Below, piece after piece: positions 27,683-63,371 of a DNA stretch of 64,000 nt (position 1 is the stretch's first letter; the number at the start of each line of letters is the position of its first letter). A program made the position numbers and the translations under genes. Location: assembly GCF_015840915.1 (NCBI RefSeq), contig NZ_CP060398.1:2418001-2482000 (forward strand), written 5' to 3'. The notes under the pieces were generated by a model, which searched no databases, had not been told where the DNA came from, and saw nothing but the letters and a program-made list of their open reading frames with translations. This DNA is from Synechococcus sp. CBW1002 (GTDB lineage: Bacteria; Cyanobacteriota; Cyanobacteriia; PCC-6307; Cyanobiaceae).

Positions 27683-28963
27683 ATGCTCAGTGACAAGGCG
27701 ATCCAGGCCCTGCGGCCCGACCCGGAACGCCCGGGCAGCAAGCACCACGACCGGGACGGCCTCTACCTCTGGGTGGCGCGCTCCGGCTCCAAGACCTGGC
27801 GCAAGGACTACCGCTGGCAGGGATTACGCCGCACCTTCACCATCGGCCCTTACCCGGCCGTGCGGCTCGCCGATGCCCGCAAGCAGGCCCTGGAGCTGAA
27901 CACCTGGATCAAAGCTGGCATCGATCCGCGCACCCAGGCCCCAACTCAGCAGCGCAAGCAGGTCGAAAGCAGCAGCCGACCTTTCGTCCAGATCGCCCAG
28001 GCCTGGTTCGAGCACCACAGCGCCAGCTGGAGCCCCCGCTATTGCAGAGATATGCGGGAGAAACTTGATCACTTCGTGATACCGGCACTGGGGCAACTTG
28101 ATATCGAGGCGATCACTCGCAGCGACATTGAAACCCAGCTGCTCGCGCCCATCCTCGCCAGAGGTGCCAATGAACAAGCCCGCCGCTGCAATGACGTCAC
28201 CCGTCGCGTGATTGAGCACGCCGTTGATCTCGAACTTCGGCAGGACAACCCCGCCGTCAAAGCCCGCAAGGTCATCGCCGCCACCCGCGTAACCCACTAC
28301 CACCGCATCAGCTGGGTGGAGCTTCCCGATCTCTTGGAGGTGATCGATCGCTTTGAGCGGCAACGCCTCGCCGAGCGCAGCAGCCTCATCGCTCTGCGCC
28401 TGATGATGCTCACCCTGGTGCGGCCCAGTGAACTCCGGGAAGCCCGTTGGAGCGAAGTGGATACCGAGGGTCGTCAGTGGATCATTCCCGCTGAACGCAT
28501 GAAGACTCGCGTTCGCCACATCGTGCCGCTTTCCTCGCAGGCGCGGCACCTATTCGATCTGCAGCGGCCGATCACCGGCCACACCGATCTGGTCTTTCAC
28601 ACCCCCAACCACCGCGGCAGCGGCGAGCTGCGGGTCATGAGCAATGGCTGCCTCTCGATGCTGCTGCGGCGCATGGGCTTCCAGGGGCGGCAGACACCCC
28701 ATGGCTTCAGGGGCTTCGGGCAGACCAACTGCATCGAGCAGCTCAAGATCCCCAGGGTGGTGACCGAAAAGCAGCTGGCCCATGCCGATGGCAACAGCGT
28801 CAGCCGCGCCTACGACTGGGCCGAATATCTCGAGGAGCGCTCCGACATGCTGCAGCGCTGGGCCGATCTGCTCGATCAGGTGGCCGTCGCTGCCGGTCTG
28901 GCGCCGGTCTCAGAGCTGAGCGCACAACTGGCTGGTCAACCATCAGCGCTGCATGCGGCCTGA
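27683..28963 (+). CDS. int: Tyrosine-recombinase integrase (P4 type)
   Basis: This 426-residue integrase has an N-terminal DUF4102-like arm-binding domain (D-R-D-G-L-Y-L-W-V near residue 25, R-R-T-F-T-I-G-P-Y-P near 50), a SAM-like core domain, and the catalytic domain. Visible catalytic residues are Arg in L-V-R-P-S-E-L, His/Arg in H-G-F-R, His in L-A-H-A-D, and Tyr in R-A-Y-D-W-A-E-Y-L-E-E-R. P4-type integrases insert at tRNA 3' ends, which fits the tRNA-Ser 224 bp upstream. Its end overlaps the alpA-like gene tail to tail by 28 bp. Confidence 0.92.
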   Translation: MLSDKAIQALRPDPERPGSKHHDRDGLYLWVARSGSKTWRKDYRWQGLRRTFTIGPYPAVRLADARKQALELNTWIKAGIDPRTQAPTQQRKQVESSSRPFVQIAQAWFEHHSASWSPRYCRDMREKLDHFVIPALGQLDIEAITRSDIETQLLAPILARGANEQARRCNDVTRRVIEHAVDLELRQDNPAVKARKVIAATRVTHYHRISWVELPDLLEVIDRFERQRLAERSSLIALRLMMLTLVRPSELREARWSEVDTEGRQWIIPAERMKTRVRHIVPLSSQARHLFDLQRPITGHTDLVFHTPNHRGSGELRVMSNGCLSMLLRRMGFQGRQTPHGFRGFGQTNCIEQLKIPRVVTEKQLAHADGNSVSRAYDWAEYLEERSDMLQRWADLLDQVAVAAGLAPVSELSAQLAGQPSALHAA

Positions 28964-33875: not shown

Positions 33876-36456
33876 AGCGGCCACCAGTCCCGCAAAGGCC
33901 TGCATCGACCGCGGCGCAGCCGAGCAGTTCCTCTCCCTGCTGGGCAAGGACCCTGCCAGCGCCCGGCTGCGTGCCTTCCCCCATCGCGGCAACCCCGCCA
34001 AGGGAGCAATCGGCGCCCGCAAGGGTCCTTTCGAGCTGGCGGTGGCGGAGCAGTGGCAGCGGGAAGGCCGCGGCATTTACCTGGTGATCAACGACGGCGG
34101 CGACCGCAAGAGCGAGATCACGGCCTGCCGGGCGTTCTTTGTGGAATGGGACGACCGGCCTATCGCCTGGCAGCTGAACGCCTGGAAGGAGCTGGGGCTG
34201 CCCGAGCCCTCGCTGATCGTGCTCAGCGGAGGCAAATCTGCCCATTGCTACTGGCTGCTGGAGCAGCCCATCCCGCCAAAGGAGTGGGCGCCGCTGCAGG
34301 CCGAGCTGATCGCCTATGCCAGCGGTGATCCCCACTGCAAGGACGCCTCACGGGTGATGCGGCTGCCGGGCTGCTGGTACGTGGATGCGGCCGGCGAGCC
34401 CACCGCCCTGGTGGAGCTGGTGCATGTGAGCGGCCAGCGCTACGCCCCTGATGACATCTCCCTGGCGCTGCTGCCCGATGAGTTCGCCGAACCCGCTGCA
34501 GACCCTTCAGCCCAGCAAGCAATCCCCCTGGAGGCCCCCTGTGAAGCCTCCGGCACTGGAATTCCGCTGCCTGAGCTGGGCGATGAGGACTTCGGGCCGC
34601 CGCGGCCGCTGGAGCAGATCCGCACCGCCCTGGCCGCCATCCCCCGCCGGGTGGCCGGCAGCAACACCTACTCCGACTACCGCAATCTCCTCTGGGGTTT
34701 GATTCAGGCCTGCGAGCAGGCCGGCCACGACCGGGAGCTGGCGATCGCCCTGATGGAAGCCCACAGCCCCTCGGCCAGCTGCGGCTGGGACATCCGCCAG
34801 GTGGCCAGCTCTGGAGGCGAGCAGATCAGCGCGGCGACTTTCTGGTTCCACGCGCGTCAGCACGGCTGGCTGCCGCCGGAGCCTGCCCACACCCCGAGGC
34901 CTCCTGGTGCGCACGCCACAGGCAGCCGCCGACACCAGGGCGACACCGGTGGGCGCCATCCCGGTGGCAAGGGCACCGACCACACCAGCAATGCCAGGGG
35001 CACCAAAGGAGCTGGCTCTGGCGCAGGCCCGCAGCGCTTCTCGCCTCGGCCCGACACCCGGGTGCGCTGGGGAAAGGTGCACCTGCCGATCAACCGCCGC
35101 CTGAACGCCTTGGAGCACTGCATCCGATCCCTAGTGGGCCGTGAGCGCAACAGCCTGCGCCGCTCGGCCCGCGTGCGCGAGTCCCATGCCGCCCTGCAAC
35201 TCAAAACCGCCCTGCGGCTGCAGGAGATCGGTCAGCTGATCCTCGAGGCCCACGACCTACGCAATGGCAACCGCTTCCGCGGCCTCGATCAGGCCGAGCG
35301 GCTGGCAATGCCGCAACCGGTTGTGGCGTGGGAGATCCCCGGCTGCATCCCACGCCGCGACCTCTCGATCGTGGGCGGCCGGGCCAAGGTGGGCAAGACG
35401 CGGCTGGTGCATGCCCTGGCCCGCTGCCTGCTCTGCGCCGAGGACTTTCTCGGGTTCGGGGCGCCGGAGGAACCGCGGCCGGTGATCCTGGTGACCGATG
35501 ACCAGGGCGACGGCGACACCGCCCAGATGCTGCAGCAGCTCGGGATCTGGGATCACCCGTTGCTGCTCTGGTCGCGCCGGTTCCGGGCCACGGAGGCCAA
35601 CCTCGATGCCCTGCTGGCCTGTCTGGCCGCCCACCCTGGGGCGGTGGTGATCCTCGATTCGCTGCGCTCGATCACCCGCAGCTGCTGCTTTGGCGAGAAC
35701 GATCCGGAGATGGGGTCGCTGATCTATGACCTCAAGCACCAGATCACCGATGCCGGCGGCACGTTGCTGCTGATCCACCACTGCAATAAGGCCAACGACA
35801 CCACCGGCACCGAGGCCCTCTCGGGCCACAACGCCATTGCCGGGGCGGCCAACACGATCCTCACCCTCCACTACCTGGCCAAGGGCAATCGGTTGATCAA
35901 GGATTCACCCCAGCGCCGCCTGGTGCGCGAGGCCCGCTCCGGCCCACCCGCCGATCTGGTGGTGGCGATCGACGGCAACACCGGGGCCTTTGCCCGGCTG
36001 GGCACCTACGACGACCTGCAGGAGCAGCAGGAGCAGGAGAGCGATCTCGATCGCGCCGCTCAGCGGGTGCGCAAGGCCAGCGAAAAGCAGAAGGAGGCCC
36101 TGCGTTATCTCCAGGCGCTGCACACCAACGGTCTGGCCGGGGTGGGCCTGCTGGAGCTGCAGCAGGCGATCGGCATGGCGCCGGCGGAGGCGCGGCTCAA
36201 GCGGGACCTGGAGGGGGAAGCGCTGACCACCTACAAGACACTCCTATGGACTGTCAAGCCCCCGGACGCTCCGGCTGAGCGCCATCGAGGTGGCAGTGCT
36301 GACCAGCTCAGCCACGATGGCCGTGAACCAGCGCTGGCCACGCCGTGGAACCCGTCACCACCTCCAGCGAGCTGCTGCTGTGGGAGGCCATCGACCAGGT
36401 CCGTAGGGCAGAGGACGGTCCTGATCTCTCCCTCGATGAGCTGGCTGAGTGTGTGA
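33862..36456 (+). CDS. Phage replication protein: AEP-like primase fused to RepA-like helicase
   Basis: This 864-residue protein has an N-terminal RepB/AEP-primase-like domain: F-F-V-E-W-D-D metal-binding acids near residue 91, S-G-G-K-S-A-H-C-Y-W near 121, and D-A-S-R-V-M-R-L-P-G near 165. A Gly/Ser/His-rich linker (about 345-390) follows. The C-terminal RecA-fold AAA_25/RepA-like ATPase has Walker A G-R-A-K-V-G-K-T near 508 and Walker B V-V-I-L-D-S near 594. A winged-helix tail begins near 740. The last 70 residues or so lose recognisable structure and overlap the next gene by 112 bp, suggesting a damaged 3' end. It would prime and unwind DNA at the element's origin. Confidence 0.75.
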   Translation: MASPEAATSPAKACIDRGAAEQFLSLLGKDPASARLRAFPHRGNPAKGAIGARKGPFELAVAEQWQREGRGIYLVINDGGDRKSEITACRAFFVEWDDRPIAWQLNAWKELGLPEPSLIVLSGGKSAHCYWLLEQPIPPKEWAPLQAELIAYASGDPHCKDASRVMRLPGCWYVDAAGEPTALVELVHVSGQRYAPDDISLALLPDEFAEPAADPSAQQAIPLEAPCEASGTGIPLPELGDEDFGPPRPLEQIRTALAAIPRRVAGSNTYSDYRNLLWGLIQACEQAGHDRELAIALMEAHSPSASCGWDIRQVASSGGEQISAATFWFHARQHGWLPPEPAHTPRPPGAHATGSRRHQGDTGGRHPGGKGTDHTSNARGTKGAGSGAGPQRFSPRPDTRVRWGKVHLPINRRLNALEHCIRSLVGRERNSLRRSARVRESHAALQLKTALRLQEIGQLILEAHDLRNGNRFRGLDQAERLAMPQPVVAWEIPGCIPRRDLSIVGGRAKVGKTRLVHALARCLLCAEDFLGFGAPEEPRPVILVTDDQGDGDTAQMLQQLGIWDHPLLLWSRRFRATEANLDALLACLAAHPGAVVILDSLRSITRSCCFGENDPEMGSLIYDLKHQITDAGGTLLLIHHCNKANDTTGTEALSGHNAIAGAANTILTLHYLAKGNRLIKDSPQRRLVREARSGPPADLVVAIDGNTGAFARLGTYDDLQEQQEQESDLDRAAQRVRKASEKQKEALRYLQALHTNGLAGVGLLELQQAIGMAPAEARLKRDLEGEALTTYKTLLWTVKPPDAPAERHRGGSADQLSHDGREPALATPWNPSPPPASCCCGRPSTRSVGQRTVLISPSMSWLSV

Positions 36457-36992
36457 TGGCCGCCCTGGGTTCATCGCTGTCGCTGCAGCAGATCTGCAGA
36501 GCGGCTGATGGCTTGCTGCACCTGGCCGACGATCCCAGCCAAGGGAGCGCCGCACGGCAGGTTCCTGTGGTCGATGTGCAGGCCGTGCAGGAGAGGGCGC
36601 TGAATCTCTTGGATTGGCAGGAGCTGGAGGATGGCGACGATCGCAGCGACAACCAGAAGCTGATCGACAACGCCACCGATCCCGACACCGTGCTCGTGCG
36701 CGATCCCTCCGCCACTCCGGAGCTGCAGGAGATCGGCATCCTCGAGCTCCTGCAGCGCTATCCCTGTCGCGGCAACGATGCCCGCTGGAGCCCCGACGAT
36801 GCCATCGCCTTCCTGGAGACAAAGGCCCGCTGGCTGGATGCGGCACTGGAGACCTGGGAGGCCGATGGCGAGGCCATGGCCGACGACAGCGACGTGAGCG
36901 AGGCCAAAGCCGTCGTGCTGGTCGTGCCGGAGAAGCCTGGCCAGGCGTTGCTGTCCGAGGTGCTCGACGTGCTGATCCCCGTGGAGGAGTGA
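36345..36992 (+). CDS. Acidic helical phage protein, unknown
   Basis: The 215-residue product starts at GTG, is strongly acidic and predominantly helical, and has no motif I recognise. It overlaps the disordered 3' end of the primase-helicase gene and is followed 21 bp later by a perfect 21-bp hairpin. It could be a replication accessory protein or passenger DNA. Confidence 0.45.
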   Translation: MEPVTTSSELLLWEAIDQVRRAEDGPDLSLDELAECVMAALGSSLSLQQICRAADGLLHLADDPSQGSAARQVPVVDVQAVQERALNLLDWQELEDGDDRSDNQKLIDNATDPDTVLVRDPSATPELQEIGILELLQRYPCRGNDARWSPDDAIAFLETKARWLDAALETWEADGEAMADDSDVSEAKAVVLVVPEKPGQALLSEVLDVLIPVEE

Positions 36993-37013
36993 ACCACCGG
37001 CCGGCTCTCGTTC

Positions 37014-37060
37014 TGGCAGATCCGTTGCCTGCCGCCCCACGGCAGGCAACGGATCTGCCA
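37014..37060. terminator. Perfect 21-bp hairpin between the acidic gene and the IS110 gene
   Basis: Arms 37014-37034 and 37040-37060 are exact reverse complements with a 5-nt loop (CCCCA). There is no T-run on either side, so it is not a classical intrinsic terminator, although it would be a very stable RNA hairpin between two converging genes. It could alternatively be a target structure for the IS. Confidence 0.45.
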
Positions 37061-37094
37061 GGAGCCTGGGCTACTGGAGCAATCCTGCTGGCGA

Positions 37095-38177
37095 TCAGGC
37101 CGTTGCGGTGCGAACGGCGGGACCGCCGCGCAGGATGCCGAACACCTCGCGGGCGACGAACCGCTTGAGGCAGCGGATGATCTCCTTCATCGAGCGTCCT
37201 TCTGCCGTGCGTCGTTCGACGTACTCCCGGGTCTGCTGATGCCGCTGCAGCCGGCAGATCACGATGCGGTGCAGGGCGCAGTTGGCCTGGCGGTTGCCGC
37301 TGCGGTTCAGCCGGTGCCGCACCACCTTGCCCGAACTGGCGGGCAGTGGATTGACGCCACAGAGGGCAGCGAATGACGCCTCGGATTTCATCCGTTCCTG
37401 GTTGTCGCCAACTGCCACAACGAGGGTGGCACTGATGTCCACACCCACGCCGTAGGTGTTCCGCAGCTCGGGGCACAGCTGCATGGTCAGTCGATCCAGC
37501 TGCGTGACGGTTTCCTTGAGCTCCTCATCCAGCTGCTGGATGCGGCGCGCCAGGATGCGCAGGGTCATCTTGGCGGCCGCCTGAGGGGTGGTGATCTCGC
37601 CAGAACGCAGGCCTGTGCAGCTTTCGAGCAGCTCCTTTCTCTTGAGCCGCTGCAGCCGTTCCCGCAACGCTGCCGGCGCCGTCACCACGATGGCGTGCAG
37701 CTGATTGAGGGCTGCGGTGCGGTTCGCGGTGGCCGAATCCTTGGCCACCTTGAGCATGCGGATCATCTCCACCAAAGCGTCGCCCGCCTTGGGGATGACG
37801 CTGGCCGTTCCGGCGATACAGGCCCGTGCTGCGGCCTCCGCATCGATGGTGTCGTCCTTACCGATGCGCCGCCGCGTGGAGCGATCCGGCCGGTTCACTT
37901 CTACCACTGCCATCCCTGCGGCCTGCAGGGCGCGGCAGAGCCCGGCGCCGTAGCAACCGGTTCCCTCCACGGCGAATACCGGGTTGGAGCCGAATGCTGC
38001 GGCCCAGCGGATCAGCTCCTGGTAGCCACTGCGTTTGGCATCCAGCTTGAGGCTGCCCAGCCAGCCGCCATTGGCGCCCAGGGCCACCGCCATGTGCGTG
38101 AGTTTGTGGGTGTCAATGCCGACCACCACATCGTGGCCAGTGCTGATCTCGGGGGCATGTGCTGTCGCTGCGCTCAT
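37095..38177 (-). mobile_element. IS110-family transposase gene
   Basis: This 360-residue DEDD transposase has an N-terminal RuvC-like domain (D22 in G-I-D-T-H-K, Glu in A-V-E-G-T-G, the D-D-T-I-D-A pair) and a C-terminal Transposase_20 domain with the catalytic serine in L-P-A-S-S-G-K. ATG 38177 is preferred; a longer frame begins at 38204 inside a stem structure. IS110 elements lack terminal inverted repeats and are guided by a bridge RNA from a non-coding flank. The ends cannot be fixed from sequence alone. The element interrupts the phage replication block. Confidence 0.92.
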
Positions 38178-38189
38178 GACTGCTGGGGA

Positions 38190-38390
38190 CGGGAGGGGGT
38201 GCAACCAACCGGGCAGACGGACAGGCCATTGACGGGACGGGAACGTCGGACTCCTATGAGGTCACGGGACTTCCCGGCTGGTTGCCCCACCGCACGGACC
38301 GACAGGTCTTGTGAAAGACACCACCCCAAACTGGAGAAGGTCCGCCATGAGCAGGGTCAGGCCCGCGCTGGTGGGGTCCCGAAATCATCA
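38190..38390 (-). ncRNA. Candidate IS110 bridge RNA region
   Basis: About 200 bp of apparently non-coding DNA precedes the transposase start. It contains a long imperfect stem, GGTGCAACCAACCGGG (38198-38213) pairing with CCCGGCTGGTTGCCCC (38273-38288) at 14 of 16 positions, with smaller stems between and after. In characterised IS110-group elements the bridge RNA comes from this side. Boundaries and loops are not resolved. Confidence 0.35.
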
Positions 38391-40452: not shown

Positions 40453-40997
40453 GCCGCCGTGCCTCAGCCAAGCCAGCCGGCAGCGGAGAACCCCAGACCC
40501 CGGATGCCGATCAGGCGTTGCTGAACGAGCTGCGCCAGGCGCCGGCCCAACAGGATGCCGATGGCCAGCCCGTCTGGCCGGCGGCGGATCCCAGCCGACC
40601 GGTGGGCAAGGGCAACCCGCCACGGGGCCGCCGCAGCCAGAACCACAAACCGCGCGCCACCCACATGGAGGTGGAGACGCGCATTGCCGAGGCGCAGCTG
40701 TGGATCGCCCAGCGGCTGCCACTGGCAAAGATCAGGGAAAAAGCAGCCCAGAACTGGGGAATCACCAACATCAAAACGATCAGCCGCTACCTGGCTCTGG
40801 CGCGGCAGCGGATGGTGGAGGAGCTGATCACCGACCGCCGCAGGCATCAGGCCGAGCAGATCTTTGCCCTCAATGACTGCGCCAGGCGTGCGATGGACGC
40901 CGAGCAGTTCAACGCGGCTGTGGGCGCCTTCCGGGTGATTGCTGAGATCGGCGGGCTTCTGCGGGCACCGATCAAGCCGCCGGAGCCCAGGGCGTGA
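40449..40997 (+). CDS. Terminase small subunit-like protein
   Basis: This 182-residue product starts at GTG 40449 and overlaps both neighbours by 4 bp. After a disordered Pro-rich N-terminus, a helical HTH-like segment (A-Q-L-W-I-A-Q-R-L-P-L-A-K-I-R-E-K-A) and a long helical region follow. This is consistent with DNA-recognition small terminases. The identification relies chiefly on its place directly before the large terminase. Confidence 0.6.
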   Translation: MSRRASAKPAGSGEPQTPDADQALLNELRQAPAQQDADGQPVWPAADPSRPVGKGNPPRGRRSQNHKPRATHMEVETRIAEAQLWIAQRLPLAKIREKAAQNWGITNIKTISRYLALARQRMVEELITDRRRHQAEQIFALNDCARRAMDAEQFNAAVGAFRVIAEIGGLLRAPIKPPEPRA

Positions 40998-42637
40998 GTG
41001 CAAGCACCCCCGCCACCGCGACGCCAGCCGTGGGGCTTCAGGCTGCCACCCCCACCGAAGGTGGGTTGCTGCTGCCGGAGCTTGACCCCTGGGGCGATGG
41101 CGGCCTGCTGCTCCTCCCCACGTCCGCCAAGGTCGAGCCTTCGGAACCCCAAACCCTGCGCAGTTTCATCGCTGAGGCCTACCCCCGCTACGGCTTCCAC
41201 CGCTGGGCCGAGGTGTTGATCGAACTGCTCCAGCAGGTGGCCGATGGCCAGCTGAGCCGGCTGATCGTCACCTGTCCGCCGCGGCTGGGGAAGAGCCTCC
41301 TGGTCTCCAAGCTGTTCCCGGCTTACTTCCTGCAGCGCTACCCGCATCTCTTCGCGGCGATTGCCTCGTACTCGGCCGAGCTGGCCTACGCCCACTCCCG
41401 AGAAGCCCGCCACTTTTACCGGGTGACCGGCCACCTGCTGGCCCGCGACTCGGCGGCGGTGGGCAACTGGCTGACGCGGCAGCGGGGCGGCTGCATTGCT
41501 GCCGGCGTCGATGGCCCGTTCACCGGCAAGGGCTACAGCCTGGGGGTCATCGACGACCCCTACAAGGGCCCTGGCGATGCCGCCAGCCCGGCGCTGCGGC
41601 AGAAGCTGATCGACTGGCTGCGCTCGGTGTGGCTCACCCGCGCCGAACCTGCGTCGGTGCTGGGCCCGGACGGCAGGGAGCAGCCAAACCTCTCGGCCCA
41701 GGTGGTGGTGCTCACGCGCTGGGACCACCAGGATGTGATCGGCTGGCTGCTGGAGCAGGAGCTGGGGGAGGCGCCGCAGCACTGGACCGTGCTGGACCTG
41801 CCGGCCATCGCTGAGGAGCCAACCGAGCGGGCCAAGCTGCCGCCCACCTGCACCCTGATCCCCGACTGGCGGCCGGCGGGAGAGGCGCTGTGTCCTGAGC
41901 GGTTCCCCCTGCCGGAACTGCTCAAGATCCGCGCTCGCCTGGGGGCCTACTGGTGGGCGGCGCTGTACCAGCAGCGGCCGAGCCCGGCGAGCGGATCGAT
42001 CTTCCTGCGGCAGTGGATTCGGCCGCCCCTCCCCCGTGAGGAGGGCAGCCAGCGCCAGTACGCGCTGCTGGCGCTCTCCTGTGACCTCAGCTTCAAGGGG
42101 GAGGCGGAGAGCGACTACTGCGGCTTCTGCCTGGCCGGCTTGCTGGCACCACCGGTCCGGAATGCCATCCCCCGAACGGGTGAACCGCAGGGGCAAATGA
42201 CCACGGCGGCACTGGAGATCGAGGTGCTCTGGGCCGCTCGGCACCGCTTTGGCCTGCCGGAGGTGATCCGTTTCCTGCTGGGCTGTCTGGAGGCGCTGGA
42301 GCAGCAGGGGCTGCGCCCCAATGCCGTGCTGATCGAGGACGCCGCCAACGGGCCGGCGGTGCTGCAGTCCCTGCGGCGGCGGGTGCCGGGGATGCTGCCG
42401 ATCACTGCGAGAGGCAGTAAGGAAACCCGCGCCCATGCCGTCGCCCCCCTGGTGGAGGCCGGGCAGATCCGCTTTCACCACCGTGCTCAGCCGCTGGTGG
42501 AGGAAGCCATACGCTTCCCCAAGGGCAGCAAAGACCTGGTGGATGCCTTCTGCCACGGTGCCCTGTGGCTGGAGGGTCGCTACTGGAAGGCCCAGGGCAT
42601 CCAGCCGGTGGTGACGCCGCTGCTGGTAAGTCGGTGA
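40994..42637 (+). CDS. Terminase large subunit
   Basis: This 547-residue packaging motor has a Walker A-like motif (C-P-P-R-L-G-K-S near residue 95) and Walker B (L-G-V-I-D-D-P near 184), followed by V-V-L-T-R-W-D-H-Q-D. The C-terminal RNase H-like nuclease domain begins at L-S-C-D-L-S-F-K-G near 360. Start GTG 40994 overlaps the small-subunit stop. Its stop overlaps the next start (GTGA at 42634-42637). Confidence 0.88.
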   Translation: MSASTPATATPAVGLQAATPTEGGLLLPELDPWGDGGLLLLPTSAKVEPSEPQTLRSFIAEAYPRYGFHRWAEVLIELLQQVADGQLSRLIVTCPPRLGKSLLVSKLFPAYFLQRYPHLFAAIASYSAELAYAHSREARHFYRVTGHLLARDSAAVGNWLTRQRGGCIAAGVDGPFTGKGYSLGVIDDPYKGPGDAASPALRQKLIDWLRSVWLTRAEPASVLGPDGREQPNLSAQVVVLTRWDHQDVIGWLLEQELGEAPQHWTVLDLPAIAEEPTERAKLPPTCTLIPDWRPAGEALCPERFPLPELLKIRARLGAYWWAALYQQRPSPASGSIFLRQWIRPPLPREEGSQRQYALLALSCDLSFKGEAESDYCGFCLAGLLAPPVRNAIPRTGEPQGQMTTAALEIEVLWAARHRFGLPEVIRFLLGCLEALEQQGLRPNAVLIEDAANGPAVLQSLRRRVPGMLPITARGSKETRAHAVAPLVEAGQIRFHHRAQPLVEEAIRFPKGSKDLVDAFCHGALWLEGRYWKAQGIQPVVTPLLVSR

Positions 42638-43335
42638 GCGAGCCAATGGTGTCCGCGGTGCGGGAAAATCCCAGGCCATCGCTTGTGGCGAGCCCAGGGG
42701 CTGCTGTGCTGGCGCCGGCCGTGGTGCAGCTGGTGCTGCCGATCACGGTGGTGCTCATCGGCGATGCCACCGAGGTGGAGCGAATGCTGCGGCAACGGCG
42801 CTACCGCAGGCCGGCCTGCCACGCCCGAGCGCAGCAGCTGGAGATCAACCTCCAGGAACCGGAGCGTCACCACCCCAGAGCCCAGGGTCAGCGGCCACGG
42901 CGCTGCAGACCCCGTCGCCAGCGCCCGATGCGGCCCCATGCCGCGGCCGATGCCCTGGCTCTGGAGCACATGGATCTGGCGGAGAAGATCGCTGGCAACT
43001 TCGCGCGGCGCACCATCCATCCCAAGGAGGATCTGCTGCAGCTGGCGATGATCGGGCTGATCAAGGCGGCGCGGCGCTACGACCCGTCACGTGGCCTATT
43101 CCGGCCTTACGGGCGCACCTATGCCAATGGGGAGATCACGCACTTTTTGCGGGACAACGGCTTCCTGCTGAAGGTGCCGCCGACATGGCGGGAGCTGCAT
43201 GCGCGGGGGCAGCGGTTGCTGACCTCAGGGGTGGGAGTGATGGAGATGCTGCAGCGATTGGAGATCAGTCGCGAGCAGTGGGTTCAGATTGCTGAGGCCT
43301 GCTCAGTGCGGGTGGTTGCATTCCCTGTTGATTAA
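42634..43335 (+). CDS. Phage-borne sigma-70 family factor
   Basis: The product (about 233 residues) has an unusual Arg/Pro-rich N-terminus, then a clear sigma region 2: A-L-E-H-M-D-L-A-E-K-I-A-G-N-F near residue 110, D-L-L-Q-L-A-M-I-G-L-I-K-A-A-R-R-Y-D-P-S-R-G, and R-T-Y-A-N-G-E-I-T-H-F-L-R-D. It resembles group 3/SigB-SigF-type factors. Region 3 continues in the R-E-L-H-A-R-G segment, but a full region 4 is not obvious, so the protein may be shortened. GTG 42634 overlaps the terminase stop; ATG 42646 is the alternative. It probably directs late transcription of the element. Confidence 0.75.
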   Translation: MSEPMVSAVRENPRPSLVASPGAAVLAPAVVQLVLPITVVLIGDATEVERMLRQRRYRRPACHARAQQLEINLQEPERHHPRAQGQRPRRCRPRRQRPMRPHAAADALALEHMDLAEKIAGNFARRTIHPKEDLLQLAMIGLIKAARRYDPSRGLFRPYGRTYANGEITHFLRDNGFLLKVPPTWRELHARGQRLLTSGVGVMEMLQRLEISREQWVQIAEACSVRVVAFPVD

Positions 43336-43361
43336 GCGTGCGTGTGGCTGACATCTCATTC

Positions 43362-44666
43362 CTACCCGGCGCTTACCGGACAGGGAAGCTCATCCTTGAC
43401 TAAGCCCAGATCACAGTTTCGGAGGAAGAAAAAGAAGGTAGAATCAATCGCGTATAGCCGACGCTTGCCAATATCGTAGTCAATCAAGGGCGGATTGATG
43501 CCCTTCTTGTGCTGAAGAGTCGAGAGATTGTGAAGCAGATTGCTCATGTCAGATGGGCGCACATCATCCTTGCGATGATGATGCTGCTTGATCCTATCCG
43601 CAATGTCGGAGCGACTGATTCCATGCTCGAGGCCGGCGAATCCCATTTCCAGGATTGCGCAGACGAGATAGTACGGCAAGTGAAGTGGGGTCTTTTCTTT
43701 ATCTTTTGAGTGAGTAACATTGCCAGAGGAGATAAGCTCAAGCGCTTGAAGATGCGTGGCTCCGTATTGCTCCGCTTTCTCTTGAATCGCCGTGTTGGAG
43801 AAGTCAATGCTAGAGATCTGTTGCGACAACTGCCTCCACTCTGATACTCCTGCAGCGATGCATGTGTGCTTCAACAACTCCTGGAAAACGCCAATACTTC
43901 CGAAAGAATTTTCAATGCAATGCTGAATCACATCAGGCGCGAAATCGACATTCAGGTGCTTTGCCCCGTCCGTGGCAACTCTGTGAAACTCATCTTCAGT
44001 CCAAGGCTCTACGGCAACATCAACGACTCGGTCAGTGAGGTCGGGGCAATAGATTCGGAGCTTGTCTTTTTGGCGCCACACTCCCAGCACTACAAAGATG
44101 ACGCCCATTTCCTGAAAAGAGCGCAGATCGAAGGATAGCTGGCGCTGCTTCTCCTCTGTAAGGTAATGGAAGTTCTCTAGGACGATCTTCTTCTTAAAGT
44201 TCACGCTTTTTAAGAGCTCGGCGATATCTTGAGCAACGGCCAGGTTAAAAGGAATCGTTTTGAGGTTTTTTTGGCTCTTATCCACAGTCTTGAGTCCGCT
44301 TGACGCATTCGCCTCGCCCTCGCCAAAGAACCAAATTGTCGCCTTTGCCCTGATCCCCAGAGTTGCCGAAGCCTCTGAATCCTTCTCCTCCACCTTGCCT
44401 ATCTCAATATCTACTCCGCATTGGCGGAGGATGCTCGAGTAAATGTCCTCCACGTTGCTATTCGGCGAGAGGCGTACAACAACATTCTGGTCGTATGGCA
44501 GATACCGTGAAACCAGCGCTGTTTTGCCCTGCTTCGACGCTCCGTACACAACCACATGCTTATCCTCGTTTAATACGGCAGTGAAGAGTCCGTCAATGTT
44601 GTCGCGAACGATGTATGACAGCACTGGGTCTGCGCTGACGCCGAATACCTGGTTGAGGGTAGTCAT
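43362..44666 (-). CDS. AAA-type ATPase with C-terminal winged helix, probable cargo gene
   Basis: This 434-residue protein has Walker A G-A-S-K-Q-G-K-T at 42-49 and a Walker B-like I-V-L-E-N-F-H-Y-L at 161-169. A sensor-like V-L-G-V-W-R region and lid helices follow, then a C-terminal winged-helix-like domain (about 340-420). I have seen such stand-alone ATPases in bacterial genomes, but no function is established. The gene is noticeably richer in A and T than everything around it, is reversed, and sits between the sigma factor and portal genes, which is a common cargo position. ATG 44666 is chosen over GTG 44678. Confidence 0.6.
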   Translation of the reverse strand: MTTLNQVFGVSADPVLSYIVRDNIDGLFTAVLNEDKHVVVYGASKQGKTALVSRYLPYDQNVVVRLSPNSNVEDIYSSILRQCGVDIEIGKVEEKDSEASATLGIRAKATIWFFGEGEANASSGLKTVDKSQKNLKTIPFNLAVAQDIAELLKSVNFKKKIVLENFHYLTEEKQRQLSFDLRSFQEMGVIFVVLGVWRQKDKLRIYCPDLTDRVVDVAVEPWTEDEFHRVATDGAKHLNVDFAPDVIQHCIENSFGSIGVFQELLKHTCIAAGVSEWRQLSQQISSIDFSNTAIQEKAEQYGATHLQALELISSGNVTHSKDKEKTPLHLPYYLVCAILEMGFAGLEHGISRSDIADRIKQHHHRKDDVRPSDMSNLLHNLSTLQHKKGINPPLIDYDIGKRRLYAIDSTFFFFLRNCDLGLVKDELPCPVSAG

Positions 44667-44678
44667 TGTGCAATCCAC

Positions 44679-44991
44679 TTGAACATGAGAGAGGTTTACG
44701 AGGCATGGTTAAAGGTGGACGAACCCTCAGCATTGAGTGACCAGCCCCTTCGTGACTCGCGTGATAATTCTAGGTCGCTTAATGCAGATGTCTGTCTGTC
44801 GCTTGACTGCGAATCCTTGGCAGGAAATTCATCGCGTCTGACACCTCGGCGAACCCACGCATCAACCTAGGGTTTCGGGCTGGTCGACCCGTCTGCCCTG
44901 ACGCTATGGCCAAAAGAATGCAGATTCTGTATGGAATGCCCCCGCGGCCAATTGCTGTTGCTGGCAAAGGCGTTTACCCAGCAAGCAGCCC
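44679..44991. other. Intergenic region upstream of the ATPase and portal genes
   Basis: This stretch of 313 bp has no convincing coding frame, hairpin terminator or repeat. The left part shares the lower GC of the ATPase gene and presumably contains its promoter. The GC content returns to normal from about 44900, marking the right end of the foreign insert. Confidence 0.5.
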
Positions 44992-46581
44992 GTGCCCACT
45001 ACCCGGCGCCGCAGGACAACTACCCCCTGCAGCTCCTCCTCGCCACCAGCGCCGCAGGCTCAGCCACCTGCCCAGCCCCCCTGGCTGGAACACCCCATCC
45101 TCTCGGGCCTGAGAGACCGCCTGCAGCTGGTCTACGACTGCTGGACCCTGCTGGAGCTCCCCGACGGCACCAGCCGCCGGCCGGTGTATTTGCCCCGCGG
45201 CATCGAGGAGCCCGAGACCTGCTACCTCAAGCGGCTGGAAGCTGCCCGCCCCACCGGCTTCTACCGCGATGCCCTGCGCACCTACGCGGGGATGCTGTCG
45301 CGACTTGTCTGGCAGGAGCTGCCCGACTCGCTGACCAGGGTGGCCACCGATGTGGACGGCCAGGGCACGGACCTGGGGGTGTTCCTGTTCCTGGCCGACC
45401 TGCTCACCCTGCGCGATGGCGGCTGCCTGATCCTGCAGCTGCCGCCCCAGCACCGCTGGCCCTCAGAAGGGGACCGGCTGGAGGCCCTGGCCAAAGGCGA
45501 TCGGCTCTCCCTGCCGCGGCTGCAGCTGGTGCCCCGGGGCGACCTGCTCAACTGGCGCCTGCCCACCGACGGCTCCACCGGTGCTCCGGCGTCGGGGCCG
45601 GTGGAGATCGTCTGGCGGGAACCGCGCCGCCAGGCCCTGCCGCCCCGCTACTCCAGCGACCATGCCGCCGTGCCCACGGTGGTGCTCGACGCCCACGGCG
45701 GGCTGGTGCCCGATCCACAGGCCTGGCTCTACCGCAGCCTGGCGGTGGGCGATGACGGCCTGCTGCTGCGCAGCTGGCAGGCCAACCCCAACCCCGGCGC
45801 CGCCGATGGCTACGACGTGGTGCCGGTGGGGGAGCCTTCGCTGCTGCCCCAGCGCTTTGACCTGCCCGCCCTCTGGTACTCGGTGGATGGCACCGCCTTT
45901 GGTGAGGGCGATCTGCCCCACCTGGGGCTGGCGCACCAGTACCTCAACCACTACCGCTGCCGCAGCGAATACGAGGACCTTCTCTCGCGCACTGCCCTGC
46001 CGGTGGGTGTGCGCACGGGCCTGGTGGATGCCTACGGCTTCCGCCGCAGTGATGGGGCACTCGGCTCTGGTGCGGCTGCCGGCGGAACTGATGCTCAACG
46101 CCCCCAGCGGCTGGTGCTCTCCACCTCCTCCTTCATGGACCTGCCCGAGGGGGCCACGTTCCAGTGGGTCGAAATCGAGGCCCGGTCGCTGGCGGAGCAT
46201 CGGGCCTACCTGCAGCAGCTGGAAGACGCCATGCGTCGCGATGCCCTGATCCCGGCCGGCGGCCAGGGCCCGGCCCGCACCGAGCTGGAGATTTCCCTGA
46301 CTGCTGGCCAGAGCTTTGCGGTGCTGCAGTCGCTGGCGGGTCAGAAGCGCTCGATGCTCAGCACCCTGCTGCGCCAGTGGACCCGCCTCACCGGCGAGAA
46401 GCTCTCCGACACACCGGCCTGCAGCGTGGAGATCTGCCCACTGGCGCCGCCCCAGCCACCGCGCAAGCCCCAGCCCTCGGTGCAGGAGTGGCTGGTGCTG
46501 CATGAACGGGGTGTGATCGATGGGGCCGAGCTGCGCCAGCAGCTGGGGCTGGGCGAGCCCAACGGGGGCAGAGGCAGCTGA
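44992..46581 (+). CDS. Phage portal-like protein (DUF4055 family)
   Basis: This 529-residue protein has the DUF4055 order: L-P-R-G-I-E-E-P-E-T-C-Y-L-K-R-L near residue 65, R-T-Y-A-G-M-L-S-R-L-V, then D-V-D-G-Q-G-T-D-L-G-V-F, L-R-D-G-G-C-L-I-L-Q, L-L-N-W-R and the L-A-H-Q-Y-L-N-H-Y segment near 320. DUF4055 proteins are the portal subunits of many tailed phages, forming the ring through which DNA is packaged. The start is GTG 44992, followed by a low-complexity N-terminus. Confidence 0.75.
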   Translation: MPTTRRRRTTTPCSSSSPPAPQAQPPAQPPWLEHPILSGLRDRLQLVYDCWTLLELPDGTSRRPVYLPRGIEEPETCYLKRLEAARPTGFYRDALRTYAGMLSRLVWQELPDSLTRVATDVDGQGTDLGVFLFLADLLTLRDGGCLILQLPPQHRWPSEGDRLEALAKGDRLSLPRLQLVPRGDLLNWRLPTDGSTGAPASGPVEIVWREPRRQALPPRYSSDHAAVPTVVLDAHGGLVPDPQAWLYRSLAVGDDGLLLRSWQANPNPGAADGYDVVPVGEPSLLPQRFDLPALWYSVDGTAFGEGDLPHLGLAHQYLNHYRCRSEYEDLLSRTALPVGVRTGLVDAYGFRRSDGALGSGAAAGGTDAQRPQRLVLSTSSFMDLPEGATFQWVEIEARSLAEHRAYLQQLEDAMRRDALIPAGGQGPARTELEISLTAGQSFAVLQSLAGQKRSMLSTLLRQWTRLTGEKLSDTPACSVEICPLAPPQPPRKPQPSVQEWLVLHERGVIDGAELRQQLGLGEPNGGRGS

Positions 46582-46597
46582 TCTGGCAAGGGAGGGC

Positions 46598-47095
46598 ATG
46601 ACCCAGTCCTCCCCACCCACCTGCACCTGGCGTCCCGGTGATGCCGAGGCCTTGCGCATCGCCCTGTCCATCCCGGTGACCAGTGCCGCCCTTGCGGCCC
46701 TGAACCGGGAGATGGCCCAGCTGCAGACCCACTACCCCACAGGGGTCTGCACCGCCCAGGGCCACCTCGATGCCATTGCGGCGCTGAATGAGCAGCTGGC
46801 CGCACTGACACCGGCAGAGGTGAACAGCCCGGTGCGCAGCCGGCGCAAGGGCGTGGCCGGTGGCGTGGTGCCCAACCCACTGCCGCTGAGAAAGTTGGCG
46901 GTGGTGGAGTACGCCACCGAGCTGCTGCTGGAGGAAACCGAGAGCGAGTGGAACCCTGCGGGCCCCTCACCGGCGGTGGTGCTGAACCGGCAGCGCAGCC
47001 AGCACATCGGCCAGCTGGCGCTGCTGCTGCCGCGGCTGCAGAACTGGCGCCAGTGCAACCCCGACCCCTTCCGGGGATCGCTGGTACGGGGCTGA
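46598..47095 (+). CDS. Phage protein following the portal, unknown
   Basis: The 165-residue product has mostly helical segments. ATG 46598 follows the portal stop by 16 bp, and the gene ends 3 bp before the LysM gene. It may be a head or head-tail accessory protein. No motif is recognised. Confidence 0.5.
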   Translation: MTQSSPPTCTWRPGDAEALRIALSIPVTSAALAALNREMAQLQTHYPTGVCTAQGHLDAIAALNEQLAALTPAEVNSPVRSRRKGVAGGVVPNPLPLRKLAVVEYATELLLEETESEWNPAGPSPAVVLNRQRSQHIGQLALLLPRLQNWRQCNPDPFRGSLVRG

Positions 47096-47098
47096 GCG

Positions 47099-48268
47099 AT
47101 GGAGCTACCCCTCTCGCCACTCAACCAGGGCCTCAACCCCCTGCGGGGTGCGCCGCTGTGGGGCCAGTTGGTCTCCCTGCCTGCAGCCGCTTCAGCGATT
47201 GACAGCCGGATAGCTCAGCCCGCGGCTCTGCCCCTGTGGCTGGCGCTGCAGCCCTACGCCAATGCCCGCCTCTGCCTGTTCGAGGTGGACCGGCCTGACA
47301 GCCGCAATCCGGTTCCAATCCGCCGGCATGTGATCGATTGCTTCCTCGAGCAGAGCGGCATCGTCAGCGGCTACAACGACACCGCCCTCACCGACCCTGG
47401 GGACGTGTTGCTGCGCGGCTACCTCTGCCGGGCGGCGATCCTGCCGGTGAGCACCAGCAACACCTTCGATTGGCTGGCGGCTGAGCAGGACTGGGCCACC
47501 CCAGGCTTCCGCGACGAGGCGCCGCTGCCCTGGGACCCGTCGTTGCTGGGAACTGTGCAGGCTCCTTGTCAGGGTGTGATGTGGCTGGGGGACCTGGCCC
47601 TGCTCCAGCCCCAGGGCGGACTTCCCTCGGGGGGACGGGCCCAGTTCGCCGGTTGCCAGGTGATGCACTTCGGGGCGGACTACGGCCCGGGCGGCATCGG
47701 CCTGCTGCTGCAGCCGTTGCTGGGGGAAGCGATCCAGCTGGTGCTCAGACCCCACAGCGTGCTGGTGCTGCGCGATGGCGACACCTTGAACCTGATCGCT
47801 GAGCGCTACGGCACCACCGTGGCCACCCTGCGGCGGATCAACCCCCAGCTGGAGAGCACCCAGACGATCATCGCCGTCGAGGGCGACTCCCTGGCGGTGC
47901 TGGCCGGTCGCTATGGCACCACCGAAAGCAAGCTGCGCAGCCTCAACCCGGTGCTGCAGCAGAGCGAGACCTACATCAGCGCCGAAGGCGAAACGCTCAG
48001 CAGCGTGGCGGCCGAGCAGAACCTCAGCCTCACTCTGCTGCGCCAGTTCAACCCGGAGCTGAGCAGCTGGCCCAGCGAGGAACCGCTGCCGGCTGGCACC
48101 ACCCTGCTCCTGCCCGTCTACCGCTCCACCACTTCCATCCCGGCGGGGATGCAGTTGCTGGTGCCTGGCTACATGCCCTCAACCCCGCTGCCGGCGGGGG
48201 AGTGGATCTACCTGCCGGCCCGGCGCTCTGCTCCCGTGCTGGATGAGCTGCCTGAGCAGGGCTTTTGA
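47099..48268 (+). CDS. Phage structural or lysis protein with three LysM repeats
   Basis: This 389-residue protein has an N-terminal domain of about 215 residues with no recognised motif. Three LysM repeats follow, at about 221-255 (V-L-R-D-G-D-T-L-N-L-I-A-E-R-Y-G), 258-302 (A-V-E-G-D-S-L-A-V-L-A-G-R-Y-G) and 304-345 (S-A-E-G-E-T-L-S-S-V-A). A Pro-rich L-P-A-G repeat tail closes it. LysM binds GlcNAc of peptidoglycan. Its location among head genes suggests a virion-associated protein rather than a soluble endolysin, and no catalytic domain is visible. Confidence 0.65.
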   Translation: MELPLSPLNQGLNPLRGAPLWGQLVSLPAAASAIDSRIAQPAALPLWLALQPYANARLCLFEVDRPDSRNPVPIRRHVIDCFLEQSGIVSGYNDTALTDPGDVLLRGYLCRAAILPVSTSNTFDWLAAEQDWATPGFRDEAPLPWDPSLLGTVQAPCQGVMWLGDLALLQPQGGLPSGGRAQFAGCQVMHFGADYGPGGIGLLLQPLLGEAIQLVLRPHSVLVLRDGDTLNLIAERYGTTVATLRRINPQLESTQTIIAVEGDSLAVLAGRYGTTESKLRSLNPVLQQSETYISAEGETLSSVAAEQNLSLTLLRQFNPELSSWPSEEPLPAGTTLLLPVYRSTTSIPAGMQLLVPGYMPSTPLPAGEWIYLPARRSAPVLDELPEQGF

Positions 48269-48337
48269 GGAGCTGGCAACAGGGAGAGCGAGCGCAGCCC
48301 GGACGGGGCGCCCGCAGCACCACAGCCGTGATGGGTG

Positions 48338-49285
48338 ATGCCCTCCTCCTTCTTCTCCTCTGACTCCAGCGTCGCCAACAGCGGCGCTGCTCCAGGTCCC
48401 ATGGTCCCTCCTGGCCGATGGCAGACCTACCGCCAACAGCAGCAACAACCCAACCAGGGCTCTGCTGGCTCTGTCCAACCTGCCGCCGACCCCGACCTGC
48501 TCAACAGCGACGGCGCTGCTGACGCGGGTCTGGATGCTGCCGACGGCGACGACACCCTCGATCTCTCCCTGCCACAGGACTCCAGCCCCAGCGACAACGA
48601 CGACCCCCCTGCCGCTGCTCCCAGCAGTGCTGATCCCCTGCGGGCCGAGCGGCGCCGCAGTAACCAACTCGAGAAAGAGCTGCGCAAGGCCCGAGCCCAG
48701 CTGTCCCGCTTCTCCGAGATCAACCCGGACGAGTACGCCCGCCTGCAGGACGCCGAGCGCAAGCGCGAGGAGTTCGAACGCCAGGTGGGCGAGCGCGAAC
48801 GCCAGCTCAATGAGGCCAACCTGCGCCGCGTGCGCAGCGTGGAAAAGGAACGGGACGAGGCCCGCTCACAGGTGCAGAACCTGCGCAAGGAGCGCTTGAT
48901 GGAACGGCTGTTTTCAGAAGCGGAAGGCCGGGTGGGCGGTGATGAACGGGGGACGTTCTTTGACACCTTCGTGACGCTGTGCGGCGGCCACTTCCAGCTG
49001 GGCGAGGTGGACGGCCGCGAGCGGCTGCTGCCGGTGGACGGCAAGGGCCAGCCCCTCACAGCCGACGGTGTCGCCCTCAGCGATGGCGACTACATGGAGG
49101 AGCTGCGCCGCCACCCGGTGTACAGCTTCCTGTTCCAGCAGCGCAGCGGGCTGTACTCGGCGGCTGTGCCGGAGAGCGGTCACGAGCACGGCGGAGCCGT
49201 GAACCTGCAGACCCTGAGCACCGCCGAGCTCTACCTGGAGGCCGTCAAGGGCACCACCCCCAGGGCGGCTGCACCGCGGCGCTGA
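48338..49285 (+). CDS. Scaffold-like phage protein with central coiled coil
   Basis: This 315-residue product has an acidic, Ser/Pro/Asp-rich first 100 residues. A strong charged coiled coil follows at about 103-190 (R-R-S-N-Q-L-E-K-E-L-R-K-A, F-E-R-Q-V-G-E-R-E-R-Q-L), then a globular end. This composition is typical of capsid scaffolding proteins located after the portal. No capsid gene follows. ATG 48338 or GTG 48335 are equivalent starts. Confidence 0.6.
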   Translation: MPSSFFSSDSSVANSGAAPGPMVPPGRWQTYRQQQQQPNQGSAGSVQPAADPDLLNSDGAADAGLDAADGDDTLDLSLPQDSSPSDNDDPPAAAPSSADPLRAERRRSNQLEKELRKARAQLSRFSEINPDEYARLQDAERKREEFERQVGERERQLNEANLRRVRSVEKERDEARSQVQNLRKERLMERLFSEAEGRVGGDERGTFFDTFVTLCGGHFQLGEVDGRERLLPVDGKGQPLTADGVALSDGDYMEELRRHPVYSFLFQQRSGLYSAAVPESGHEHGGAVNLQTLSTAELYLEAVKGTTPRAAAPRR

Positions 49286-61750: not shown

Positions 61751-61826
61751 AGCCATGGCAGGCGTAGCGGAGACCCCGGACCATGAGGAGGGCTGCGCGA
61801 ATCCGATCCACAGAGTGCCGGTGGGG
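61751..61826 (+). repeat. Shortened third copy of the 264-bp repeat
   Basis: AGCCATGGCAGGCGTAGCGG and the following bases match copies A and B. An internal stretch of about 100 bp is missing, and the match resumes at GACCATGAGGAGGGCTGCGC and runs on through the final third with two or three substitutions. Confidence 0.75.
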
Positions 61827-61908
61827 CCCCGGTCGCCGCAGGACCCGGCCATGGCAACCGGTCCTGGCCACTGCCATCACGACGGCGAACTGGCCAACAG
61901 GGGAACGC

Positions 61909-62256
61909 TCAGCCTTGGCCGCAGATCACCTGCTGCAGCACCTGCTGGAATTCCGTCTGCAAGGCCAGCGGCAGCACCCCGATGCGCCGTTTCACCAGTG
62001 GCATCGCCAAGGTTGTCATGCGGCTGAGCCGGATCATCGAGCTCACCTTCAGGCCGGTATCTGAGAAGCCTGGATGATCGGCAGGGATGTCGAGCTCATC
62101 GCGGCCCGGCGGCCCGCTGACGTTGGAGCTGATGAAGGCCAGCAACACATCCCCATGGCGCTCACTGGTGGTGATCACCAAGGCCGGCCGAGGCTTGGCC
62201 GCAGGCCCATCCGTGAATGGGAAGGCGACCAGCACGATGTCGTAGCGGCTCAGCAT
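61909..62256 (-). CDS. PemK/MazF-family toxin
   Basis: This 115-residue protein has the family start R-Y-D-I-V-L-V-A-F-P-F-T-D and the K-P-R-P-A-L-V-I-T-T strand, followed by F-I-S-S-N-V. Such proteins are ribosome-independent mRNA endonucleases. Its ATG overlaps the stop of the upstream gene (62254-62258), the standard antitoxin-toxin coupling. Confidence 0.85.
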   Translation of the reverse strand: MLSRYDIVLVAFPFTDGPAAKPRPALVITTSERHGDVLLAFISSNVSGPPGRDELDIPADHPGFSDTGLKVSSMIRLSRMTTLAMPLVKRRIGVLPLALQTEFQQVLQQVICGQG

Positions 62257-62474
62257 CAGCCGGCGCCGATCGCTTCTCCGTCCGAGAAGCTGTAGAGGTC
62301 AGGCTCAGCCGCCAGGTCGTCAAAGGCACCCCCGGCCATCGCCATCTCAGCCAGGGCCCCGTGACTCAGGTCGCTGCTGTCCTGCTCCAGCTGCCTGAGC
62401 AGCCAGCGGCGATCGTCAGCCGGCAGGCTGCGGATCACCGCAAGCAGGTTCTCGGTGAGCTGGGGATTGGTCAT
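62256..62474 (-). CDS. Antitoxin partner of the PemK-like toxin
   Basis: The 72-residue acidic protein (L-P-A-D-D-R-R-W-L-L-R-Q-L-E-Q near residue 17, then an acidic Ala-rich tail) immediately precedes and overlaps the toxin gene. It resembles the small antitoxins often found beside PemK-like proteins in cyanobacteria. A DNA-binding motif is not obvious. Confidence 0.7.
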   Translation of the reverse strand: MTNPQLTENLLAVIRSLPADDRRWLLRQLEQDSSDLSHGALAEMAMAGGAFDDLAAEPDLYSFSDGEAIGAG

Positions 62475-62483
62475 CGCCCCAGG

Positions 62484-62678
62484 CTAAACAGCCTGAACCT
62501 CAGGGTTCACCCTGCCCACAAGCGACCTGGCAACAGCTGCTGTTGTCACTGGGGCCAGGCCCCTGGAGCGTGCCCTTGGGCCTGACCTTGATCGAGGCGC
62601 AGAAATACGCCCGCAGAGCAGCTCCAGGGTGCGGGAGCTGAGGAGCTGGAAGGCGCGGATGCGGGATGCGGAAGCCAT
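62484..62678 (-). pseudogene. Truncated copy of the small ELPF-tail gene
   Basis: The first 22 codons match the gene at 51716-51913 except for one Thr-to-Ser change. After L-E-L-L-C the sequence diverges at the end of repeat B and the rest has no resemblance. It is the duplicated 5' end of that gene. Confidence 0.65.
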
Positions 62679-62877
62679 GGCAGGCGTAGCGGAGACCCCG
62701 AAGCAGGCCGGGCGGGGTCAAGGGGCAGCCCCCGCTGAGATGCGGAGCGCAGCGCAGCCATCGAACAAGTCGGCTGACTCGCGTCAGCCCTTGAGGCCGC
62801 CCGGACCATGAGGAGGGCTGCGCGTAGCCGATCCACAGAGCGCCGGTGGGGCAGGGACTGGATCAGCCCTGTCCGGC
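62613..62877 (+). repeat. 265-bp direct repeat, copy B
   Basis: Same orientation as copy A at 51848-52111, differing by a few substitutions and one- or two-base indels (for example CTCTGCAATGCGG versus CGCTGAGATGCGG). Outside these limits the flanks are unrelated. Confidence 0.9.
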
Positions 62878-63371
62878 ACTTAGCACCTGCGGCGAGAAGG
62901 CCCGCATGACGATGCGTTGCAGCTGGTAACGAGGGATGTGGATCCCGCCGCTGCTCTTGCTGTCTCCAGCCGCCGGATCCATTCTGGCTGCAACGGGATT
63001 CGGAGGCTCCATCGATGGAAGACACCCCCCCTGAGCAGCAGCCAGGAGTGCGCTGACGATCCGGCCCCTGCTCCAACACTCTCGACGGATTTCTGACGTT
63101 CCTGGCGTGTAGCCAAGTCGCCGTCCATTGCACCGCCTGAGGTGCCCCGGACCCAACGGAACGTCCCGATTGACACCTGGCCCCAGGTGCCAGCGCCGGC
63201 AACTCCGACCACAACCGAAGACACCCTGATCTGCAAACGATCAACCGACCGCGCAGCTGCGCCCGTCCCCCTTGGGACGGCACCACGGCTGAGCAGACAA
63301 ACGCCCGGGGCCAGCACTCCGGGCTTTGTTGTTCTCTGCACCCAGGTGGGGCCTCATTCCGACAAAGCTGC
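62878..63371. other. Gene-poor region with a probable terminator
   Basis: No convincing gene is seen in these 494 bp; minus-strand frames are present but have no family features. GCCCGG (63303-63308) and CCGGGC (63319-63324), followed by TTTGTTGTT, could form a rightward intrinsic terminator, with no clear gene upstream. The region looks like decayed sequence between the repeat and the Fe-S gene. Confidence 0.4.

Follow-up and report, generated by a model that had tools for sequence, protein, structure and literature searches.

A PDC-S59 defence-candidate ATPase gene in a prophage cargo slot of Synechococcus, with integron features at the corresponding site of related prophages

Prophages of the P2/P4 type have defence hotspots, in which interchangeable defence cargo occupies one site of the phage. 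Among the families of PADLOC is PDC-S59, which we take to be a single-gene candidate for phage defence named through guilt by embedding or association. PDC families are described as unvalidated candidates in the available part of PMC12988326, and no tested function for PDC-S59 was found in the literature searched. Integrons serve as antiphage gene banks in Vibrio (Darracq 2025 and Getz 2025, as told in the available part of PMC12409362). They are also known from phages, with intI, attC or attI found in phage genomes (PMC9892861, available part), and Cyanobacteria are among the integron carriers listed in the accessible portion of PMC8618304.

We analyzed a 64,000-nucleotide stretch of the genome of Synechococcus sp. 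CBW1002, hereafter the window. A prophage in it has a cargo slot, and the slot is occupied by a mobile gene without a conserved partner that encodes an AAA+/winged-helix protein and belongs to a defence-candidate family. The features of the locus are as follows.

28325-28813, plus strand: tyrosine recombinase with a Phage_integrase match (genome C1:2446325-2446813), probably the prophage integrase
40994-42637, plus strand: terminase large subunit
42565-43335, plus strand: sigma-region-2 gene, left border of the slot
43336-43361, no strand: 26-nt gap from the stop of the sigma gene to the stop of the cargo gene, with no attC, unlike several relatives
43362-44666, minus strand: PDC-S59-type AAA+ ATPase gene (open reading frame of 434 aa, PADLOC match, structure model)
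44702-44991, minus strand: portal-side arm, homologous to the attI-like arm of relatives
44992-46581, plus strand: portal gene, right border of the slot

The 434-codon frame contains no stops and starts with ATG at 44666; a start at the in-frame GTG of position 44678 would lengthen the protein by four residues. The gene is present in a single copy in the genome of 3,854,122 bp. The earlier note had described it as AT-richer than both flanks and opposed in orientation to the packaging genes, and both descriptions hold. The gene has about 51% GC and the flanks about 69%; the two 1-kb bins with the gene have a GC content of 0.52-0.54 compared with 0.69-0.72 in the adjoining bins, and in 100-bp steps the values inside the gene range from 0.43 to 0.57. 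The ATPase gene lies on the minus strand, whereas the terminase, sigma-region-2 and portal genes all lie on the plus strand.

The protein matches the PADLOC profile PDC-S59 with an E-value of 2.3e-69, and the likeness is full-length, with residues 6-419 aligned to positions 4-401 of 428. Pfam gave AAA_22 and TniB below their cut-offs plus weaker matches, a search of NCBIfam returned no match, and PHROGs gave one weak match, to a family without known function. Three segments of the coding sequence are referred to below.

44520-44543, minus strand: codons of GASKQGKT, residues 42-49, Walker A
44247-44411, minus strand: codons of an insert, residues 86-140, with low model confidence
44160-44177, minus strand: codons of ENFHYL, residues 164-169, at the Walker B position

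Across 70 homologues, G42, S44, K45, Q46, G47 and K48 are invariant, as are E164, F166, H167, Y168 and L169, with W197, R213 and W222 among the further invariant residues. The usual DE of Walker B is absent from ENFHYL, which may nevertheless be the Walker B motif, judging from the strand that precedes it in the model.

We obtained a structure model from 70 sequences (mean pLDDT 87.1, pTM 0.83), in which an AAA+ core is followed by a helical lid and a winged helix. The P-loop ATPase with a C-terminal winged helix that the earlier note had read from the sequence is borne out by the GASKQGKT motif and by the modelled C-terminus, where helices and a two-strand wing form a winged-helix-like unit. 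In comparisons by VIA-align, the best matches were the archaeal Walker ATPases 2qen (Z 19.2, rmsd 4.1, 315 residues aligned) and 2fna (Z 18.7, rmsd 4.3, 325 aligned), followed by Cdc6/Orc1 2qby (Z 18.6, rmsd 5.8, 326 aligned), below which more Orc/Cdc6 chains rank; CED-4 (Z 14.8, rmsd 5.0, 286 aligned) and TnsC (Z 13.8, rmsd 3.7, 239 aligned) were also matched. A structure search against viral models mostly returned AAA+ proteins of the clamp-loader type, at low TM-scores. The predicted fold thus resembles those of Orc/Cdc6 and STAND ATPases and ends in a winged helix: the core, lid and winged helix superpose on the archaeal Walker ATPases, Orc1/Cdc6 and CED-4 (Z 14.8-19.2), while the unusual ENFHYL and the family-specific insert set the protein apart from them. 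The 434 residues hold only the core, insert, lid and winged helix, with no STAND sensor repeats and no effector domain, and we therefore call the protein Orc/STAND-like and do not file it as STAND.

The insert is rich in Gly, Ala, Thr, Lys and Glu and has an alternating hydrophobic pattern. Its maximum beta moment is 1.66 compared with 1.13 in shuffled sequences (mean of 70), and it is beta-amphipathic beyond the shuffles in 39 of the 70 rows (below 0.05). The confidence of the insert was low in two predictions, with pLDDT below 50 in a large part of it, and the second structure, that of a homologue, brought no gain. The alternating pattern suggested a pore-forming role, which we leave as speculation since the model of this region is largely below pLDDT 50.

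Single-sequence scans of the genome and viral contigs returned no relatives, and it was alignment-based scans that found them. With tblastn on one genome per species, such a scan gave 199 relatives, which excludes a chance open reading frame. The best 80 of the 199 were kept; they come from many phyla and include sequences from a Pseudomonas MAG (61% identity) and a Leptolyngbya MAG (60%). Relatives were further found in 9 of 72,556 plasmid records, the best with 59.5% identity in Leisingera and one located beside ParAB, and on 59 viral contigs, while the phage records gave one weak match only. Within the phylum, matches are confined to 4 of 386 genomes and, in a set of 60 relatives, to 2, the genome under study being included in both counts. 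The scattered distribution and the high identity between distant hosts point to horizontal transfer.

To characterize the neighbourhood of the relatives, we clustered the neighbouring proteins at 84 of 87 loci, omitting three with no intact core frame (L050, L061 and L068). The gene calls around the loci were our own picks of open reading frames, some of them spurious. No conserved partner emerged, the largest noncore cluster being present at 10 of the 84 loci in scattered positions; by eye, the larger clusters resemble ABC ATPases, integrases and resolvases, whose distances from the gene vary. The earlier note would have given up its reading for a conserved housekeeping gene or for an ATPase with recurring transposase partners: the rarity of the gene in the phylum is not that of a housekeeping gene, and neither a transposase nor any other partner recurs among the 84 loci. 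We then searched the nearest larger genes, at most two per side, against PADLOC, covering 294 of 297 proteins (one protein of more than 3000 aa and two pieces of the core gene were omitted). The matches, tallied by family and not by locus, comprised Hachiman, Lamassu, Mads, Old, AbiE, DISARM, BREX, Hma, restriction systems of types I, II, IIG, III and IV, PD-T4-6, DarG and other PDCs.

The site of the gene in the prophage was studied through related prophages. One of them, in genome G035, matches the window at 80% identity over 41061-43339 and at 75% over 45061-49242, and between these matches it has a different stretch of 3.7 kb in place of the 1.7 kb of the window. Its slot frames resemble, by eye, a dGTPase and a SLATT-type protein, and a match to the GTP cyclohydrolase II family appears in the cargo set that includes these frames. 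Stretches at 61751-63213 of the window repeat at 92-100% identity in the same prophage region of G035 at shifted positions and are perhaps a mobile element or the prophage end.

Relatives of the portal protein were found in 69 of 400 genomes of the family, and from the better matches we chose 55 stretches upstream of portal genes. Together with the window these gave 52 measurable intervals out of 56, four stretches (L140, L151, L157 and L172) lacking a sigma match within reach. From sigma gene to portal, the distance varies from 68 to 8236 bp; between terminase and sigma gene it is 499-709 bp in all but one of 51 cases, the exception measuring 2233 bp. The GC content of the cargo is below that of the flanks, the nearly empty slot of 68 bp being the one exception, and 97 of the 127 cargo frames of at least 100 aa are on the minus strand. 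The 127 proteins, from 50 loci, fall into 115 clusters, of which 105 are singletons; some are IS genes or spurious frames. None of the other 55 prophage stretches contains a match to the ATPase itself. The related prophages carry other, mostly unrelated genes at this place, and the position is therefore a cargo slot, as the earlier note had suspected.

Family scans were made for 122 cargo proteins, after dropping one stretch (L154) with the same cargo as another (L153), and considered the top 25 families, by family rather than by matching protein. Among the matches listed were ABC-3C components, AriA/Old/GajA-type ATPases, Mrr, DUF4365, MmeI, RelA/SpoT, FRG, HNH, DUF3732, subtilase and HEC-01/PDC, and also transposases, several cargoes being IS insertions. 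At E≤1e-5, the 122 proteins matched 222 PADLOC families compared with 23 for a control of 74 random genes, all drawn from the genome of the window and including a DISARM pair. The label of candidate defence or cargo gene given in the earlier note is thus upheld by the full-length PDC-S59 match, the relatives beside defence systems and the cargo slot.

Some cargoes recur. The slots L150 and L173 contain related proteins of 270-300 aa, and L153 and L154, two prophage-region copies in one genome, share an identical four-gene cargo that includes a GTPase-like protein. In the window, a 2.07-kb unit at 36237-38300, an IS110 element with a companion frame, consists of a 215-aa frame and an IS110-type transposase and recurs at 91% identity in a slot cargo (L163:6686-8750).

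Viewed on the cargo strand, most rows share the sequence of the portal-side arm as far as GCGTTAGGC or a close variant of it, where the conservation ends; no clear core was seen in L142, L143, L146, L150 and the window. At the 3' end of the sigma gene, several stretches contain an imperfect palindrome between RYYYAAC and GCGTT, motifs that we read as the ends of attC. Our first attC detector was strict and gave ten sites only, and the two-fold symmetry of the end motifs left the strand unreadable; it was replaced by a covariance model built from an alignment of 15 sites. These fold into one stem with two single-base bulges, and 10 of the 17 pairs of the stem show changes on both sides. At E≤0.01, the model identified 25 sites in 18 of the 55 fetched stretches and none in the other 37; 13 of the 18 had fed the model and five (L136, L156, L170, L174 and L177) had not. 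All 25 fall within the slot and have the strand of the cargo.

Integrases were found at the other end of the slot. In L175 an intact integron integrase of 331 aa separates cargo from portal, and fragments of intI occur on the cargo strand between sigma and portal in L183, L171, L172, L161, L167, L163 and L160; for L172, which has no sigma match, the position is defined on the portal side only. About 230 bp past the integrase, L183 and L175 have a core GTTAGG. L183 combines intI, an attI-like core and attC cassettes with a broken IntI, and L175 has an intact IntI and the core with no attC match by the same model. Integron integrases above the family cut-off are present in 27 of the 39 prophage-bearing genomes, that of the window included, and attC sites in eight of nine genomes searched, some of them arrayed near intI. 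The slot of several relatives is an integron, with an integrase or its remnant by the portal gene, an attI-like core, cassettes and a terminal attC; the cassettes there are on the opposite strand to the phage genes, and the 3' end of the sigma gene is the far border. Upstream of the portal gene, at 44900-44991, most close relatives also share a conserved palindrome-like ATGCAGGATCTGCAT, possibly an operator or late-promoter element.

In the window, the homology of the portal-side arm to that of relatives extends to the distal part, and for L152, L148 and L149 the score was reached in 0 of 300 shuffles; the similarities to L138, L141, L144 and L147 were not significant (0.05-0.07). The core of the arm is degenerate (44702-44718), and the start codon of the ATPase gene is about 40 nt from it. 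A short leader is expected for the first cassette of an integron. Elsewhere in the genome, there is a complete integron integrase (C1:1250144-1251082) and, some 44 kb from it, one attC-type site (C1:1206107-1206194), both 1.2 Mb from the window.

Searching 39 related genomes, we found four other S59-like genes, with 20-30% identity, and in all four an attC is at or downstream of the 3' end. The site begins at the end of the gene in L285 and lies 27 bp past it in L283; in L284, where a stop interrupts the frame, it overlaps the frame's end, and in L282 it follows two further frames. Remnants of intI are located upstream of the genes in L282 and L283. These sites indicate that S59-like genes travel as cassettes in this family. 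Among 90 S59 loci of other taxa, one had an attC at E≤0.01, a weak and upstream match by a model tuned to the cyanobacterial family, and S59 is thus not generally a cassette. Because the window contains no intI (best tblastn E-value 0.29) and no attC up to an E-value of 1 with the covariance model, we can only infer a cassette origin for its gene, which most likely entered as an integron cassette and later lost its attC.

The slot could instead be an ordinary cargo hotspot, at which homologous or illegitimate recombination between conserved flanks exchanges the cargo and the integron parts are passengers in some members. The long conserved flanks on both sides, the several IS insertions among the cargoes and the lack of attC in the window and in the 37 stretches all fit this explanation, but the portal-side conservation ends at the integron core GCGTTAGGC, all 25 attC matches in the slot share one strand and an intact or broken intI occupies the corresponding place in eight stretches; we regard it as unlikely, though deserving serious consideration. 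An explanation less plausible still is a plasmid or prophage addiction or competition gene, which excludes other elements such as plasmids and has no direct antiphage role: against the relatives on nine plasmids, one of them beside ParAB, stand the many on chromosomal and viral contigs, located beside defence genes.

Two further origins concern the protein and were rejected. That an Orc/Cdc6-like fold with a winged helix serves the prophage itself, as a phage regulator or replication initiator, is suggested by the similarity to Orc1/Cdc6 and made very unlikely by the opposite strand, the foreign GC content, the lack of a match in the 55 other prophage stretches and the presence of the same family on plasmids and chromosomes. 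The ATPase being a TniB/TnsC-like target-selection protein left over from a transposon would account for the weak TniB match in Pfam (17 bits, against a curated cut-off of 22.4), the presence of TnsC among the VIA-align matches and a weak profile match to VchTnsC (E-value 0.083); as Orc1 and the archaeal ATPases match better, the PDC-S59 match is full-length and no transposase partner recurs, this origin is extremely unlikely.

The reading that we prefer, and consider reasonably probable as a whole, is that of an acquired PDC-S59 defence candidate carried as cargo of a temperate phage in an exchange slot shared by its lineage. The single-gene candidate would have been acquired horizontally by a temperate cyanobacterial phage, with the sigma-to-portal site serving as the exchange slot common to the prophage lineage. 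Expressed in the lysogen, the protein most likely would need no partner and work as an Orc/STAND-type switch driven by ATP: a phage signal would lead to ATP binding and oligomerisation, the winged helix would bind DNA or a partner, and infection would be halted or the cell killed, to the gain of the resident prophage. The conserved beta-prone insert may be the best candidate for an effector, speculative as this is. Regarding the slot, we lean toward a widespread cyanobacterial temperate-phage lineage with an integron in its packaging region that forms an interchangeable slot for host-protecting cassettes, the window representing a fixed PDC-S59 gene that has lost its attC.

If this is true, the integron cassette would be a currency of defence genes common to phages and hosts, used by a phage lineage at a fixed site, and phages would draw on a cassette pool like that of the host's chromosomal integrons to arm their lysogens. 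The slot would then offer a ready catalogue of candidate defence genes, the 115 clusters with their IS and spurious members, and the PDC-S59 candidate would gain a clear biological setting.

Phage integrons, antiphage gene banks in integrons and PDC candidates are known; in the literature searched, which scarcely covered subscription journals and preprints, we found no account of a cyanobacterial prophage lineage with an integron slot in its packaging region. The slots of the related prophages resemble the chromosomal integrons of Vibrio, as presented in the available part of PMC12409362, in having single-gene cassettes of defence type with attC, but those are chromosomal, whereas here one to few cassettes lie in a prophage packaging region and the integrase is often decayed. 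Compared with the integrons in phages covered by the available text of PMC9892861, in which the words "cyano", "Synechococcus" and "portal" do not appear, many different cargoes here occupy one fixed site of a prophage lineage. The hotspots of the P2/P4 type differ: for the slot described here, the evidence points to an integron as the means of exchange.
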